DNA of 64,000 nucleotides from Ophiosphaerella korrae (lineage: Eukaryota > Ascomycota > Dothideomycetes > Pleosporales > Phaeosphaeriaceae). This document shows positions 26,862 to 60,401 of the stretch, in pieces. Under the pieces are notes generated by a model, which worked only from the letters and a program-made list of their open reading frames with translations, did no database searches and was not told where the DNA came from. How positions within the stretch are numbered: the stretch's first letter is position 1; every line of letters starts with the position of its first letter. The translations under genes were made by a program, and so were the position numbers. The stretch spans positions 1 to 64,000 of the forward strand of contig JALNQF010000172.1 in assembly GCA_028456385.1 (NCBI GenBank). Reading direction: 5' to 3'.

Positions 26862-29800
26862 CTAAGCGCCGTCAAATACCAGAAGGGATTTGATATTGAC
26901 TTTGCCAAACCCAGACCGACGCAATAGGTCTCGGCCCCGATGAAACGGGAACTCAGCTACGACCATAATACTTATATTCACATCGCTAATGCCGGCTTTG
27001 GTCAGCAGTCGTAACACTGCGCATAGCGTTGTTCCTGTGGCAAGAACATCATCCACCACAACCACTGGAGCACTTTTTGAGGCAATATTCAATTCCACCT
27101 CGATGCGCTTCTCTTCCACCGGACGAGAGCCCAAAGACGAAATATAAGATGGTTTTTTGGTGACAGAGATGATGGGTGGAGGCAGTTTGCCAGAGTCACG
27201 AATGACCAATAGCGGCAAACCAGTCTTTGAGGCAAGCGACGCTGCGAATATGTCGCCAGCACCATAACACACAATTCTGTCAACTCTGGCCCAATCACCG
27301 CTGAAATGGGTTTGAAGTAAAGATGTGCATAGGTTTAGTCCATCCGGTTGCGCGGCGATACCAAGCACATGACGGAAATCTGTGCCTGGTGGAAAATTTG
27401 ATGTTAATTGTACCATACTAGCCAACCGCTGGAGGTCCTCATGTAAGAAAGGGACTAGGTGCTTCTCAGCAAAATCAGTTGCTGCCTCTTCCCCAGCGGT
27501 GTCATTTTCAAAGAGAAAACTAGGGCAATAATCCAACTCTGTTGTGATTTTTGAGTCACTCTCGTCGACCGCGTCCCTGAATGGTTCAGCGTAAGTACTT
27601 TTAGGATTCCCCCGACGATCATTCCGCGTCTGCTCACTCGCTTGGATGCGAACATCAAGCAGTCTTCTATCCGGTACCAGATGTGATAGAGTTGGGATTG
27701 GCGCCTCATCTCTCATCCCAGTGATCAACAGGACGTCAACTTCTGCGGCGGCATGTGATACGTTCAGAAAGTGCTCCTCTGGTAGTCGAGGTCGTTGCCG
27801 CACTTGTTCTTGGAAGAATGCAGTCAATTTTGAACGATGCTTCTCCTTATAAGGACGATCTCCGAGTAGACGAGCCAGGTCAGCACCAACAGCTTCGGCG
27901 TACTCTCGCTTCGTTTCATCACTAATACTGACAACTCTTGTTGTAAGGTCGTTCCGGAGATGTTTTCGAAATACGGAAGTCCATAAATTTGCACAAGTGT
28001 CTTTGCCTGCAGCGATTTCGCCCGTGACAAGTATGATGAGCTTCTGTTGACTTGGCCACTGTGGAAGGGGACAAGAATAAGCCAAAACATTACACGGATC
28101 CATTTCAGATTTCAGAGCAGCTAGGCGCGGACCATTTGGGCCAAATGCCTTAGCTGCTAGCCTAAGGTCCCTTGGATCTGGGCCAAGATCAGCGCCATAG
28201 ACTCCCGCGCTCAGGGGTAACAAATCTTCGGCAACATCATACACCCATTGCATAGTCGACTGAGCGACTTTTGTGCCTTCTTGATCTCGTAGCCAGACAC
28301 CGGTTATCACGCAGGCGAAGTCCCAAGTCCGACATCCAAAAGCTGTTATATCATGAGCAACATCTCCAATCGCTCCGCCACCTTGAAGTAAATGGAAATA
28401 GCAAAGTGGGGATGGGCGGCTCTCTATGGCTGCCACCAAATGCTTGGCAATGTTGGTTTCTCTAATGTTTTTCAGGAACAGACATCGTTTGAATGAAGAC
28501 GTCTTGCCGCCGCCGTGACCACCATGCATTCCAGACATGTACATCTCTGCTTCAAACAGAGCAACACCATCTATCGCATTGCAATCCTTTTGCGACGTCC
28601 AGACATCGCCCCAATTTTCAGGCATGCGTGATGCTGAGGTTTTCCCGGTCGTAGAACATTCGAACATGGTCATCCCAAGTTTTAGCTGTCCGTCCCAATA
28701 CAAATACGCATCGGCAGAAAAGCTTCGGTCGGGGTTGCTGGTGGCAAGCTCGTCAAAGTGGCAAAGTTGCCGTTCAGCTTGCAGACTATCCTCCAACGGA
28801 ACGACACGTTCGCTAGTGAAATAGCTTGGAGCTGGATAGGCTTTCAAAGTCACGCTGACAACAATGCCAAAGTTGGTTCCCGCGCCTCTAATAGCCCACA
28901 ACAGGCTGTTTTCGTTTTCTGGGCGAACAGCGCCGGCTGGCTGGTGTGAACTTGGTACTTGGCCAATGCAAAGGATTTTGCCAGACTCTATGCTGATGAT
29001 TACAGCGCCAGCAATAGCGTCGCAAGTTAAACCGTGTAATCTAGCCAAATGGCCGATGCCACCTTGTAGCCACAGTCCTGCCCCTACACTCGGACGGGCC
29101 CCCAAAGGTACCGTTTTACCTGCTGACAAGGCCTTGCGAATGATGTCTTCTGTTTTGCAACCAACACCAGCAACGACCCAGGAAGCTGAGTCTTCGGCTG
29201 AAATAATTTGTACGTCGTTGAAAGCCTCCATGTTGATTGCGACGATGTTTGGCCAGACGCAGTGACCGCTATGACCTCCACCAACCACGGTGAGGCTCGT
29301 TTTATTTTTGAGGGCCCACTGGACACAGTCTTGAATATGTTGAATAGTCGTCGGCGCCATCATAGGAGCAGATTGGTGGAGGCGGGCCTCTCGGTTCTTG
29401 AGCTTTCGCTCTCCTTCGAGACTTGGCACCTTCGCCATCAAACTTGGTAACGTGGTTGCTGATTGTGTAAAGGCGATCATCACTTCTGGTGAGCTGAAGG
29501 TAAGGTACCCCGGATAGGCTTCCTCACGACGGCACAACGTGCGGCATACTTTTCGCCAGTTGGTATGCGTGGCTTCGTTGATGTCTTTTTTCTGAGGGTT
29601 GAACCCAGCGACAAAGGAAGAAAAACAGTCAATCATTTCATCTTCGTCTAGAACACTAATGGTACCCGAAGGAAATAATTTGGTTTGATGAGACACTAAA
29701 CCGTTGATATTCAGGTCATCACGGTGGAATACCAAGACCAGCCCGCCGTTTGGTGAATCCACGAGCATGCTCAGGGCCCGCTCAATAAAACTGTACTTTG

Positions 29801-30287
29801 GGCTCATGCCGTACATACTATGACAGAACAAGATGATGTCATATTTTTCATCGTCGTTATCTGTGTGTACGTTGGTAAAGGCAGTGCGGCGGATGTCAGG
29901 TAGCGATTTCGTTCCAAGAAAAATGGGGTCTGTCTTGGATTTCGCGTCAAATGAGCGTTCCAGGCGCGTCGCAAAGAACTCATGTGGCTCAAATGCAACA
30001 TATCGGTGAATCTTCTGTTTGAGGTGCGGAGGAAGATATCCAAATACGCTTTTTGGGCCTGGCCCTATCTCCAATACTGCGATCTGAGACCGAGAACTGA
30101 GAAGAGATGTTATGTGTTGACATAGCTCGGGGACGATGAAATTTTGATATGCGATCTGCCCGGAGCCTTGCACAAAGAAATTGAAGCCAGTGCGATATTG
30201 CTCATCTGACAACTGCTGCGTTAATGATGATGTATCGGGCGCTAGTTCTTGCCGCAACATTTGTTTTAGGGTATTTATTGTCGCCAT
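26862..30287 (-). CDS. Four-domain fusion: SAM methyltransferase - BBE-type FAD oxidase - phosphomevalonate-kinase-like - APRT-like
   Basis: One uninterrupted 1141-codon exon with a good start context (gaaATGGcg). Residues about 40-260 form a class I SAM-dependent methyltransferase: motif I is LEIGPGP (72-78), and a YDIILFCHSMYG strand follows. Residues about 305-740 form a berberine-bridge-type FAD oxidase. GGGHSGHC carries the likely flavin-linking His339. The position that holds a second, Cys flavin link in many relatives is Arg398 (GARPS). The C-terminal BBE segment ends RLAALKSEMDPCNVL. Residues about 748-950 form a P-loop kinase with Walker A GEIAAGKDT. PYKEKHRSK and an ITGMRDEAPI strand followed by EQTRNDRRG resemble animal-type phosphomevalonate kinase. 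Residues about 963-1141 form an adenine-phosphoribosyltransferase-like domain with FPPGTDFRHV, KLPP and the PRPP loop VVVVDDVLATGTT. Each domain keeps its core motifs. The product is unknown. Chemistry on a purine- or PRPP-derived metabolite is inference. Confidence 0.85.
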   Translation of the reverse strand: MATINTLKQMLRQELAPDTSSLTQQLSDEQYRTGFNFFVQGSGQIAYQNFIVPELCQHITSLLSSRSQIAVLEIGPGPKSVFGYLPPHLKQKIHRYVAFEPHEFFATRLERSFDAKSKTDPIFLGTKSLPDIRRTAFTNVHTDNDDEKYDIILFCHSMYGMSPKYSFIERALSMLVDSPNGGLVLVFHRDDLNINGLVSHQTKLFPSGTISVLDEDEMIDCFSSFVAGFNPQKKDINEATHTNWRKVCRTLCRREEAYPGYLTFSSPEVMIAFTQSATTLPSLMAKVPSLEGERKLKNREARLHQSAPMMAPTTIQHIQDCVQWALKNKTSLTVVGGGHSGHCVWPNIVAINMEAFNDVQIISAEDSASWVVAGVGCKTEDIIRKALSAGKTVPLGARPSVGAGLWLQGGIGHLARLHGLTCDAIAGAVIISIESGKILCIGQVPSSHQPAGAVRPENENSLLWAIRGAGTNFGIVVSVTLKAYPAPSYFTSERVVPLEDSLQAERQLCHFDELATSNPDRSFSADAYLYWDGQLKLGMTMFECSTTGKTSASRMPENWGDVWTSQKDCNAIDGVALFEAEMYMSGMHGGHGGGKTSSFKRCLFLKNIRETNIAKHLVAAIESRPSPLCYFHLLQGGGAIGDVAHDITAFGCRTWDFACVITGVWLRDQEGTKVAQSTMQWVYDVAEDLLPLSAGVYGADLGPDPRDLRLAAKAFGPNGPRLAALKSEMDPCNVLAYSCPLPQWPSQQKLIILVTGEIAAGKDTCANLWTSVFRKHLRNDLTTRVVSISDETKREYAEAVGADLARLLGDRPYKEKHRSKLTAFFQEQVRQRPRLPEEHFLNVSHAAAEVDVLLITGMRDEAPIPTLSHLVPDRRLLDVRIQASEQTRNDRRGNPKSTYAEPFRDAVDESDSKITTELDYCPSFLFENDTAGEEAATDFAEKHLVPFLHEDLQRLASMVQLTSNFPPGTDFRHVLGIAAQPDGLNLCTSLLQTHFSGDWARVDRIVCYGAGDIFAASLASKTGLPLLVIRDSGKLPPPIISVTKKPSYISSLGSRPVEEKRIEVELNIASKSAPVVVVDDVLATGTTLCAVLRLLTKAGISDVNISIMVVAEFPFHRGRDLLRRSGFGKVNIKSLLVFDGA

Positions 30288-30917: not shown

Positions 30918-32042
30918 TCACAGTCTGCCTGTGGAGTTGATGGCGTTGCAAATTTTGCGAATTTTGAGGAAAGCGGCATGGGAGAGTTTCAACATAGCTG
31001 GTATTGAAGTCCCTATCAGGGCAACGGTTGGTTCTATATGTGTAGGAATCCAAAAGGCGATCCCGTAGTCTCGGAGTCTTTGCAGATCATTGTTTGATGG
31101 TGGGAATTTATATACTGTACGAAGTTCACTGACATGCTATCAGACGGAGGTTTTCCACTAGGTACTTACTGTAGCTTGAATCTACGCGAGCCTGTTGTAC
31201 GCATGTGACGACTTTGTAACAGGCTGCGACAGGGGCCCTGTTCCTTGACATCAGATTCGTTCTAATATGCTCTCCAAAAAGGCTAACGTACGATGTCATT
31301 AAAATGAAAGTAAAAGTGACTTGAAGGCGCTGTTTTTTCGACAGCTGAAGATTCCAAACCATAGGTATTGGGAAAATGAGCAGAACCACGTCGAATACCA
31401 AACTGATTATGTACAACCACAGAGTTGATTTGAAGTAAAGGTTAGCATTACACCCTGTCTGTTTATTGATTGGATTCCACGCCACCTGAATTGGGCGACA
31501 GACGAAGCAAGGAATGATTTCGAAAACTACAAGGTAGATACCTTGTAGCGCGATAATGCCCCAAATTATGTTCCTGTAGACTGTACCGGTTTTGGAAAAT
31601 AGCCGATGATAAAACAGGAGGATAGGGACTCGGATCGTGGTGGATAATGCTGGATATATCCAAACTATGGCGAAAGAGGCTTGGGGGAGCACTCGGTACT
31701 CATCGCTCGTAATTTCACCCAGTTGCTTGCCAATTCCAGAATAATATGTTATATAAGCTGCAAAGACAGTCCAACCTAGATAGATAATCTAATAGCCATT
31801 AGCCGTCACCCGAGCTGCTCAAAAACATATAGACATGACTGTACTAGCGCTGGGATGATGGCATAGTCATCGGGGCCCATGCTTTTCGATACATATTGTT
31901 GGCTCAACCTAGCGACCACAGCAACACTCGCTATGACGCTAGTAACGATAATAGTAACAAAGACTGATAGGTCTTTGTGCCTGTCATCGATATCGTTTGA
32001 CGTGGAAATAGAGCGTGGGGCCGATAGGTAACGATAGGTCAT
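30918..32042 (-). CDS. Fungal rhodopsin-domain integral membrane protein
   Basis: Four exons (32042-31845, 31788-31292, 31243-31170, 31114-30918) give 321 residues. The frame is kept across all junctions, but the 48-nt second intron is the least certain. About seven hydrophobic spans are present. The family's signatures occur in order: GPDDYAII after helix 1-2, the PALSTTIRVPILLFYHRLF helix, the WNPINKQTGCN loop with the CRPIQVAW segment, and a late helix reading IEPTVALIGTSIP. This is the large 'rhodopsin domain' family of Pezizomycotina membrane proteins (PTH11-like and secondary-metabolite-cluster members). It is not a retinal-binding opsin. It lies upstream of the fusion gene on the same strand. 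A link is possible but unproven. Confidence 0.75.
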
Positions 32043-56419: not shown

Positions 56420-56604
56420 ACCGTCTATAAAAACAAAATTACCCTCCAAGTAAATCTAACGCCACAGTGCCGTCCCGTCCCATCTCATCCCAAGCGATTC
56501 GTGGCTATATCATACCTTGATTTGTCGTCGTCGTCGTCGTCGTCATTATCATCATCACCACCACCACCACCACCACCACAAACATGCCTTTATTCTGTTC
56601 ATCA

Positions 56605-58175
56605 TCACATCAACCCCCCTAGCACAACCTTGCCCACCCCCCCAACCTCACTCTTAACCCCCACACGACAACTCTCCTCAAACTCGCGCACAACGCCGGC
56701 AAGTATAATCTTCCGCACCCTCGCATCTGCCTTGGCAAACAAATCCCCCACGACGCCCGGCGCGCCATTCCCGGCGCTGGCCACACTCTCGGGGGTGGCC
56801 AACATGCCCAGTATCCGCGTGTAGCAATCGATCAAGACATCGCACAGCGTAGCAAAGGTGGAAAGGAAATCGGGATCAAAGGGGAGGGAGGGTGTTTGCA
56901 AGTGTGTGTAGGACTCGTTGGGCAGCAGGGCGTCGGTCTCGTCCAGGCCAAAGGCCGACTCGCTGTTTGCGCTGTTGCTCGGGGCCATGGGATGGTCCAG
57001 GCTCGCGAGGCCCGTGGCACTGGAGCTGCGTCTCGCCTTGCCGCCCAGATTGGCGCGCTTGAACATGTGCGGGATGCGGGCGCGCGACAGCGACGACGGG
57101 GTGGAGCCGTCGGCCGGGTGGATGGATTGGTACTGCTCGAACTCGAGGAGCAGGGCGTTGAGGGCTTTGAGGTAGTCTGTTGGCGAGCTGGCGTTGAGGT
57201 CGAGGATGGTGGGCAGCGAGAAGCCGAGGAGGAGGTAGTGGGTTGCGCGGCGGGCCTGGTTGCGCGGCGTGGAGGAGGGGAGGCGGGTCAGGTCGGTCTT
57301 GGAGAAGAGGAGGGTGTTGAACCAGTAGATGCGGCCCTCGTGGCTGGAGTGTGGCATCAGTATTAGCACGACGGCAATGACGGCAATGGCAGTAGCGGCA
57401 GCAGCAGCAGCAGCAGCAGCAGGAGGAGGAGGAGGAGGACATACGCTTTGCGCAGGTAGTCCAGGGTGGATATGCGCTTGGATGCCAGCTCGTGGATCTG
57501 CTGGAAGACGAGGTTGGGGGTTGTGCCGCTGGGCACGGGGATCGGGGGCGCGGGGGCGAGCTGCGGCGGCGGCGGGCGGTTTGCGGCGAGCGCTTCCCTC
57601 TGGGACGGGGGGTGGCGCAGGGGCATGGGGACGGCCATGTTGAACGGCGTCTTGGGCCTGTCGACGGCGGGGCTGGCCGTGTCCTTGGCGCTGTCGGCGG
57701 AGCGCTGCTTGGTGCGCGAGAAGGTGGCGATGGAGAGGGTTGGCCGCGGGTTGGGGGCCGCATGGGGGGCTTTGTCGGGCGAGTACGCCAGCGCCAGCGT
57801 GGCCGAGGGCGCCCTCCGGTGCGAGGACGTGCTGGTGGCGGCCGAGGACGTGGTGGTGCGGATCGAGGCGCTGCGGCTGGGACGCAGCGACGAGCCAAAG
57901 TCGGTGATGGACGAGGCGACCGAGTGTCTGCTGGCCTGCCTGCGCCTGGGTGGTGGTGGTGGTGGTGGCGTCGCCGCGAGACGGGGGGCGCTGTGGGGGA
58001 GGGCCGCGAGCGAGAGGCGGGCGGCGGCCGAGGACGAGGAGGCGGCGGCGGCGGCGGCGGTGGTAGTGGTGGTGGCTCTGGGCGGGGTCCTGTCGGGTCG
58101 GCGGGCAAAGAAGGAGGGTCGTCTGGAGAAGAGGCTGCTGGAGGAGGAGGAGGACGGAGGCGTGCGGTCGGCCAT
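56605..58175 (-). CDS. Conserved fungal protein of unknown function
   Basis: Two exons (58175-57445 and 57343-56605), counted from Met MADRTPPSSSS, give 489 residues. An upstream in-frame ATG at 58262 would add 29. The join (LRKA to HEGRIYWFN) restores a motif-rich, clearly conserved core: FQQIHELASKRISTLDYL, then NTLLFSKTDLTRLPS, then HYLLLGFSLPTILDLN. The N-terminal 220 residues are disordered and rich in Ser, Pro, Ala and Arg with homopolymer runs. The last 90 residues are helical (LSTFATLCDVLIDCY). The intron carries (TCC)n and (TGC)n runs. I recognise the core as a widespread Pezizomycotina protein but know no function. It shares a divergent promoter of about 400 bp with the ethanolamine-phosphate cytidylyltransferase gene. 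Confidence 0.8.
57380..57440. repeat. Trinucleotide repeats inside an intron
   Basis: Tandem GCA and GGA units (TGC and TCC on the coding strand) fill much of the 101-nt intron of the conserved unknown gene. A long open frame runs through it by chance because the repeat lacks stops. Confidence 0.85.
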
Positions 58176-58578
58176 GGCGGAGGGCTGTGGAGACGGCTGC
58201 CGATGCCGACACTCGGGGGCCAGGGGTTCGCCTGGATGCGGCAGAGGGATGTGCTCTGGCAAGTCTATGCAGACGGCATGTGTGCCGCCATGTCGAGTCT
58301 ATGTAGGCGGCGTGTATGCTCCGGCTTGCAACTATCACGCCCGACGCGACACCAATTGCGCCTTGAAACCGGCGCAGGAACGCTGTGAGGGCGCTTCCAC
58401 GGCCTGCCTTCTTGGCCACTAGCAGCGCGCACCGCTGCACGCCTGCGCGCCCGTGCCTCGACGGCCATTCCTCTCTCCCCCTCTCTCCCCCCTCTCGCCC
58501 CCCACTCCTCTCTCGCCCCCCCACCTCCACCACCGTCGAGCCGTCGAGCCGCCGCATCGCCGCATCGTCTGCACTGGA
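58176..58578. promoter_or_regulatory. Shared divergent promoter region
   Basis: About 400 bp separate the start codons of the conserved unknown gene and the cytidylyltransferase gene. The region includes a C/T-rich tract at about 58470-58530 on the plus strand. Long frames crossing it on both strands are by-products of its high GC content. Confidence 0.5.
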
Positions 58579-60247
58579 ATGGCCGCCCTGCAGCGCCGCC
58601 ACAGCGCCAGAGTACGTCTGCTGCCGCTGCCCGGGCTGCCTGCACTCACTTCTTTCTTCAGGGCGAGTGGATCCCCGCCGACGGCACGTGGCCCGTCGGC
58701 CCCCAGGCACCTGTGCCCGTTTCGGAGCAGCGCATCTGGGTGGACGGCTGCTTTGACTTTGCCCACCACGGTAGGACTACTGGGCCACCACATATGTGTC
58801 CGTTTTCTCTGCTCACACGCGCCCTCCAGGCCATGCCGGCGCCATGCTGCAGGCCCGCCAGCTTGGCAACGAGCTCCTCGTCGGCGTCCATTCCGACGAG
58901 GCCATTCTCGAGAACAAGGGCCCCACCGTCATGCGCCTCGACGAACGGTAGGCCCCCTCCTCCTCCTCACCACCACCACCACTACCACCACTACCACCAT
59001 GTCGCGCTTTCACTGACCCTCCCAGCGTCATGGCCGTCGAGGCCTGCCGGTGGGCCACCCGCGCCATCCCCAGAGCCCCCTACGTGACCTCGCTGCCCTG
59101 GATCTCCCACTACGGCTGCCAGTACGTTGTCCACGGCGACGACATCACCTCCGACAGCGACGGCAAGGACTGCTACCGCTACGTCAAGGCCGCCGGCAGG
59201 TTCAAGGTTGTCAAGCGCACCCCCGGCATCTCCACCACCGACTTGGTTGGCCGCATGCTGCTCTGCACAAAGTCGCACTTCATCCAGTCGCTCGAGAAGA
59301 GACTGTCCGGCGACGAGGGCCCCGGCGGCGAGGCAGAGCGCCTGGAAACAGGCCAGGCCATGCTGCAGCGCATCAGGGACTACGCCAGCGATGCCACCGG
59401 CCTCGCCCCAGGCTGCGACGTCTGGTACTGGCACGCCTCCCGCCCCGTCAAGCTCCGCCGCACCACCACCAGCAACCCCGCCCAAAACAACCACCAGGAC
59501 ACGTCCCCCAACCACCACCACCACCCCGTCAAAGAAGAAAAGGGCAGGTTCCACCAACTCGTCCACGGCATCGGCGTCAAGCCCGGCCAACAAGTCGTCT
59601 ACGTCGACGGCGGCTGGGACCTCTTTTCCTCGGGCCACATCGAATTCCTGCGCCTCGTCACAAGCGCCGAAGAAGACGCCGCGCGCCTCCGCGGCTGGTA
59701 CGCCCCGGAGTCGATACAACAGCGCATCGATGCGACGGGCGCCGATTACCCCCCCGCCTTCATCGTCGCGGGCATCCACGACGACGAAGTCATCAACCAC
59801 TGGAAAGGCCTCAACTTCCCCATCATGAACGCCTTTGAGCGCGGCCTGTGCGTCCTGCAATGCAAGTACATCTTCGCCACCATCTTCGGCGCCCCCTTCT
59901 CCCTGTCCAAAGCCTTCCTGCACACGCTCCCCTATTCCACCCCTGCCGCCGTCTACCACGGCGAAACAAAGTTTATGCCGCTTACCTATGATTCGTATAC
60001 TGTGCCCAAGGCCCTGGGCATTTATAAAGAGGTGGCGAACCATGGCTGGCAGGATGTGAATGCAGGAGAGGTGGTGGAGCGCATTTTGAGGGGTAGGAAG
60101 ATGTTTGAGGAGAGGCAACGCAGGAAGGGAGAGAAGGGGGTGGGCGAGGAGGGCGAGAGAGCTAGGCAGGAGGAGGAGAGGGAGAGGGAGAGGGAGAGGG
60201 AGAGGGAGGCGAGGAGACGGGAGATTGAGGGGCAGTTTGGGATTTGA
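58579..60247 (+). CDS. ect1: Ethanolamine-phosphate cytidylyltransferase
   Basis: Four exons (58579-58611, 58662-58770, 58830-58947, 59026-60247) give 493 residues. The enzyme makes CDP-ethanolamine from CTP and phosphoethanolamine in the Kennedy pathway. The first cytidylyltransferase half has IWVDGCFDFAHHGHAGAM with the HxGH motif split by an intron, then GVHSDEAI. VKRTPGISTTDLVGRM is the conserved end of that half. The second half starts VYVDGGWDLFSSGHIEFL, where the first His of HxGH is replaced by Ser, and continues GIHDDEVI. The first exon is only 11 codons. The linker between halves has His/Asn/Thr-rich low-complexity sequence. The C-terminal 50 residues are an Arg/Glu charged helix of simple repeats, longer than usual. 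Confidence 0.93.
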
Positions 60248-60401
60248 GAAATGGCTTAGCACAATCATGATGTTATGATCATTCCATTACTGCCTCGTTG
60301 TCATCATCTCCGCTTGAGAAATCGCTAATCGGTCAGTTACTTGCTCATTTCTTGAAAACTATGTTATGCTTATCGTTAGGGTCATATATCCAACGGTGAA
60401 G

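Follow-up and report, generated by a model that had tools for sequence, protein, structure and literature searches.

The enzymes closest to the protein described here are normally separate. Histamine N-methyltransferase (HNMT), which methylates a ring nitrogen of imidazole, is a class I methyltransferase with a SAM motif. 6-Hydroxy-D-nicotine oxidase (6-HDNO), EncM, TamL and the BBE-like oxidases are built around a PCMH FAD domain with a GGHS histidine, which in 6-HDNO we take to be the residue that links the flavin. Animal-type phosphomevalonate kinase (PMK; structures 3ch4 and 7xnd) is a P-loop enzyme in which K17-R18-K19 and the pair Arg110-Arg111 are presumably the functional basic residues (PMK numbering). 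In adenine phosphoribosyltransferase (APRT; human 6fci, Giardia 1l1r) the corresponding residues are, we assume, Arg27, Arg67 of the SRGF pyrophosphate loop and Glu104-Tyr105 (human numbering). Cordyceps Cns3, a nucleoside kinase fused to a HisG-type phosphoribosyltransferase, also carries a kinase and a phosphoribosyltransferase in a single fungal chain and serves to make a nucleoside product; unlike the protein considered here, both of its halves belong to other families, and it has neither a methyltransferase nor a flavin oxidase.

A four-domain gene and its conservation

The window, the whole 64,000-nucleotide stretch of Ophiosphaerella korrae DNA that was analysed, contains on its minus strand a gene at 26862..30287 (ATG at 30287, stop at 26864-26862) whose product is 1141 aa long. 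All features of the gene given below are on this strand. The frame translates without an internal stop (1162 aa from stop to stop), the four motifs quoted in a first-pass annotation are all present in the translation, and a strict fungal 5' splice site plus branch point pattern finds no match inside it. In GC and GC3 the frame falls inside the spread of values shown by ten other frames of the window. The sole full-length match in the 63-Mb assembly is the gene itself; 13 further matches are partial, and all fall within query residues 298-513, that is, in the flavin domain.

A homologue search with the fusion protein found 1077 proteins, and the figures that follow come from the 120 that were listed. 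These include named genomes and metagenomes and span several classes of Pezizomycotina; all 120 share the three Pfam domains at 59-67% identity and 96-100% coverage, so the same domain order, which the annotation had suggested looking for in other fungi, does occur there. An alignment of the window protein with 118 of the 120 (119 rows; P0021, equal in length to P0020, and the merged gene model P0107 were left out) has a mean column identity of 77%. The annotation's central claim, that four enzyme types share one 1141-residue frame with core motifs kept, is borne out across the family: 118 of the 119 rows retain all four motifs, the exception being P0112, which lacks the flavin histidine motif. 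Conservation of the majority residue is 0.87-0.90 in the four domains, as against 0.78-0.86 in the linkers. The distance between two sequences in one domain is correlated with that in the others (r 0.76-0.83, 7021 pairs), and median pairwise divergence is similar in all four (0.16-0.20), which argues that the domains have been inherited and constrained together. What the data show, in short, is a conserved chain that unites four enzyme domains. A structure model of the full length is poor (pLDDT 61.9), and no contacts between domains are claimed for that reason.

The kinase-phosphoribosyltransferase half, used as a query that admits shorter proteins only, gave 225 matches (120 listed). Seventeen were inspected. 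In 13 some of the flavin domain remains, and these resemble truncated or partial gene models; a further one begins within the kinase, and the other three have their start precisely at the kinase domain (P0121 and P0124 of Elaphomyces granulatus, and the metagenome record P0130). These three suggest that a kinase joined to a phosphoribosyltransferase alone may exist in some fungi.

Several individual records call for comment. P0107, from a Rutstroemia sp., is a 1404-aa model with GTP cyclohydrolase I directly ahead of the fusion protein; it probably represents two adjacent genes that have been merged, and so reveals the neighbour of the fusion gene in that fungus. P0240 is a fungal fusion gene recorded under a bacterial name (a Sphingomonadales MAG), most likely fungal DNA contaminating the MAG. 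Two Fusarium falciforme records, P0195 and P0234, match the kinase-phosphoribosyltransferase query at 53% and 44%; P0234 is without a large middle part, the start of the methyltransferase being joined to the end of the flavin domain, and the two are possibly extra, decaying copies.

Methyltransferase and flavin domains

Domain 1 (29418..30287, residues 1-290), a predicted SAM methyltransferase, has no Pfam match in the window protein; two of ten homologous fragments scanned pass the Methyltransf_23 cut-off. Structure prediction, proposed in the annotation, supports the assignment: the AlphaFold prediction for residues 1-304 (pLDDT 84.8) matches class I methyltransferases, and in structure comparison its nearest relative is HNMT. 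With HNMT the domain shares the class I fold and the SAM motif (motif I, LEIGPGP, is at 30054-30074), and E73-x-G75-x-G77 is found in all 119 rows, E100 being likewise invariant. The two differ in that identity is about 14% and domain 1 is part of a fusion; a sequence scan of the PDB with residues 1-299 had no HNMT among its matches. An HNMT-like fold leaves the methyl acceptor unfixed.

Domain 2 (28068..29390, residues 300-740) is a PCMH/BBE-type FAD oxidase. FAD_binding_4 (PF01565) is matched at residues 310-439 (E 1.2e-13, above the Pfam cut-off), while BBE (PF08031), at 712-736, stays below its cut-off (16.0 vs 20.6 bits). Matches found with phmmer are 6yjo, 6-HDNO, chito-oligosaccharide oxidase and EncM; with EncM a weaker second stretch is also aligned and reaches the C-terminal, BBE-like part of the domain. 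His339 (29271-29273) lines up with the GGH histidine of 6-HDNO and is His in 118 of 119 rows, and the position at which bicovalent enzymes have the Cys of GxCPxVG is Arg398 (Arg in 118 of 119 rows). Retention of the histidine and replacement of the cysteine lead to the prediction of a single covalent flavin link. It is this Arg, the sub-threshold BBE match and the four-domain chain that set domain 2 apart from the BBE-like oxidases.

Kinase and phosphoribosyltransferase domains

Domain 3 (27450..28046, residues 748-946; P-loop GEIAAGKD at 27999-28022) is a P-loop kinase of PF04275, the Pfam family of animal-type PMK, which it matches at residues 754-871 with E 7.2e-20 and 71.5 bits (cut-off 33.8). 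It has the GKD of the PMK P-loop, and in the alignment with 7xnd and 3ch4 K793, K814, R818 and R859 fall opposite basic residues of PMK; these four, together with G756, G761, K762 and D763, are present in all 119 rows. The K-R-K of the PMK P-loop, by contrast, is replaced, mostly by Glu-Ser-Cys: the K17 position is Glu in 107 rows and Lys in 8, the R18 position is Ser in 117 (Ile in the window protein), and the K19 position is Cys in 102 and Gly in 13 (Ala in the window protein). At the Arg110-Arg111 pair the first residue is the invariant R859 and the second is Asp (113 rows) or Glu (6 rows). The equivalog cut-off of NCBIfam TIGR01223 is missed by far (34.1 vs 188.15 bits). Data on mutants of human PMK were sought, and none were found in the portions of the open-licence literature that were accessible.

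Does O. korrae need this kinase for making mevalonate-derived products? An ERG8-type PMK is encoded elsewhere in the genome, on contig C135, and is seen as two exon matches of 238.8 and 58.7 bits, under the whole-protein cut-off, and the one PF04275 match in the genome is that in the fusion gene. The annotation's likeness to animal-type PMK holds at the level of the family; as to function, with the P-loop basic residues missing, TIGR01223 missed and an ERG8-type PMK elsewhere, the kinase is probably not a mevalonate enzyme.

Domain 4 (26865..27440, residues 950-1141; PRPP loop VVVVDDVLATGTT at 27027-27065) is an APRT-like type I phosphoribosyltransferase with the APRT fold, matching Pribosyltran at residues 977-1105 (E 2.6e-9). 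It has in common with APRT the fold, the PRPP loop, the IRxxGKLPxP segment and the FPxPGxxFR start; the PRPP-loop pattern is found in 119 of 119 rows, with Asp1080, Gly1085 and Thr1087 invariant. It appears to differ in the SRGF pyrophosphate loop, where the alignment places Gly at human Arg67, and in the loop of human Glu104-Tyr105, which is unconserved in the alignment (Ser/Leu, next to an alignment gap). Opposite human Arg27, 95 of the 119 rows have Arg, 20 His and 4 Cys. Given what the alignment places at these three sites, transfer of phosphoribose to a base by domain 4, suggested by its family, is a putative activity. Of the annotation's APRT-like end, fold and Pribosyltran membership stand, and identity with APRT is doubtful: the NCBI cut-offs are missed (NF002636, 71.4 vs 125; TIGR01090, 58.6 vs 185.85), and a separate, ordinary APRT gene lies on C8, where two exons match with 145.8 and 29.4 bits, under the cut-off.

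Searching each segment with profiles, as had been proposed, confirmed the flavin, kinase and phosphoribosyltransferase assignments and fell short for BBE and for the methyltransferase; domains 3 and 4 did not turn out to match unrelated families. Judged by its conserved residues, the protein appears capable of catalysis, and its acceptor sites are unlike those of PMK and APRT. Members of the family go by 'hypothetical protein', 'phosphoribosyl transferase domain protein', 'adenine phosphoribosyltransferase' and 'phosphomevalonate kinase' in the databases, and the last two of these names are misleading.

Genome context and gene history

The presence of a separate ERG8-type PMK and of another APRT gene argues that the fusion is probably not a housekeeping enzyme and favours a dedicated pathway. 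Ten neighbouring frames of the window were scanned; they form no evident cluster, and none points to a substrate or a product. (The gene is adjoined, at 31126-31788 on the minus strand, by an exon of a membrane protein with the fungal rhodopsin domain PF20684. Farther away, 56600-60300 is occupied by long overlapping frames on both strands, several of them rich in low-complexity sequence; some may be real genes, frame length being weak evidence there.)

A gene tree was made of the window protein and 34 of the 37 organism-named listed homologues, without P0107 and two further Xylographa. Its inner branches are often short (12 of 32 are starred) and classes are mixed, with four changes for the four Leotiomycetes rows; class labels nevertheless cluster above chance, with 12 changes against a shuffled mean of 21, a figure as low being reached in none of 200 shuffles. 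(A technical note: class labels were confirmed in the taxonomy for 10 of the 34 names, including all four Leotiomycetes, and the remainder are those we take to be correct; Sarcosagium is listed there as incertae sedis.) Identity is at times higher between classes (90.9% for Trichoglossum and Lepraria, 87.0% for Glonium and Lepraria) than within one (79.0% for the two Hyaloscypha species, 61.8% for two Dothideomycetes). Several of the tree rows, including Trichoglossum and Icmadophila, are MAGs and could be contaminated. Of the groups put to AU tests as clades, once the tree was already known, Leotiomycetes (4 rows, p 9e-81), Lecanoromycetes (10 rows, p 1e-46; with Sarcosagium 11 rows, p 2e-43) and the genus Hyaloscypha (p 9e-8) are rejected; Sordariomycetes (7 rows, p 0.108) and Dothideomycetes together with the window protein (9 rows, p 0.074) are not. 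Rejection of two of the four tested classes as clades points to transfer between fungi or to duplication with loss; horizontal transfer and ancient duplication followed by loss would each fit the pattern.

What might the fusion do?

Our best reading, put forward tentatively and at somewhat less than an even chance, is that the fusion serves a specialised pathway of Pezizomycotina, in which this one multifunctional enzyme assembles and modifies the ribonucleotide of a purine- or imidazole-like compound. Domain 4, with PRPP as donor, would attach phosphoribose to an N-heterocycle resembling a purine or an imidazole, probably not plain adenine; domain 3 would place a second phosphate on the resulting 5'-phosphate; domain 1 would N-methylate the ring; and domain 2, its flavin held by one histidine, would oxidise it with molecular oxygen. 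The methyltransferase and the oxidase would thus act on the same product, as the annotation had supposed, and fusion would keep reactive intermediates in one chain and fix the stoichiometry. The class of substrate is suggested by kinship with APRT and HNMT; the order of steps and the product are likewise conjectural, and the kinase could have an acceptor other than a nucleotide.

Other readings must be weighed against this one. That separate genes were joined through read-through or through assembly, the latter raised in the annotation itself, has a negligible probability: nothing was found in its favour, and it is ruled out by the single frame, by the recurrence of the fusion across many metagenomes and named genomes (the 120 listed homologues, of 1077, all have matching architecture) and by the correlated divergence of the domains. 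It is improbable, though less so by far, that the kinase works on the donor side and has as its product PRPP or a PRPP-like diphosphate, to be consumed immediately by the phosphoribosyltransferase next to it. The bacterial ribose-1,5-bisphosphokinase PhnN, or PMK in its formation of a diphosphate, would be the model; the chemistry of PMK is indeed the transfer of phosphate onto phosphate, and the two domains adjoin in the window protein and occur together in all 120 listed homologues, but an ordinary PRPP synthetase should supply a fungus with its PRPP. Slightly less probable again is the suggestion that domains 3 and 4 are relics that sense ATP and PRPP, after the fashion of the APRT-fold repressor PurR, with the product made by domains 1 and 2 only. 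Profile matches of the kinase-phosphoribosyltransferase segment include the Pur operon repressor, and replacement has affected both the basic P-loop residues of PMK and the pyrophosphate-loop Arg of APRT; against this, all 119 rows keep Lys762, Asp763, Asp1080, Gly1085 and Thr1087, and a sensor has no need of every catalytic group.

More serious, if still rather unlikely, is a catabolic or detoxifying role: domains 1 and 2 would render an alkaloid or modified base from the environment inactive, and the phosphoribosyltransferase and kinase would salvage the base or trap it as a nucleotide. A gene without an evident cluster among the ten frames scanned around it, a 6-hydroxynicotine oxidase among its nearest solved flavin relatives and a tree that crosses some class boundaries, as suits an accessory function, all agree with such a role; likeness of flavin folds does not, however, specify a substrate, and the same data fit biosynthesis. 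The biosynthetic reading can also be pressed further, to a level at which we hold it to be doubtful: a self-contained pathway on one polypeptide, leading from an N-heterocycle to a new type of nucleoside diphosphate, both methylated and oxidised, Pezizomycotina-wide and repeatedly passed between classes.

Significance

Each of the domains belongs to a known fold or family, and it is the fusion and its pathway that appear to be undescribed. The annotation knew of no pathway with this set of enzymes in one chain, and the accessible portions of the open-licence literature searched contained neither such a pathway nor a description of the four-enzyme fusion. An enzyme so large, conserved and widespread among filamentous fungi, in which four activities can be recognised, should point to a real metabolite and a real pathway; that the four reside in one gene makes the pathway directly testable through a single deletion and metabolomics. 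Its tree, which runs across classes, makes the fusion a candidate for studying gene exchange among fungi. If the one-polypeptide pathway is true, its product would be a signal, cofactor or defensive compound that serves very different fungal ways of life, those of lichens, endophytes, nematode trappers and soil fungi.
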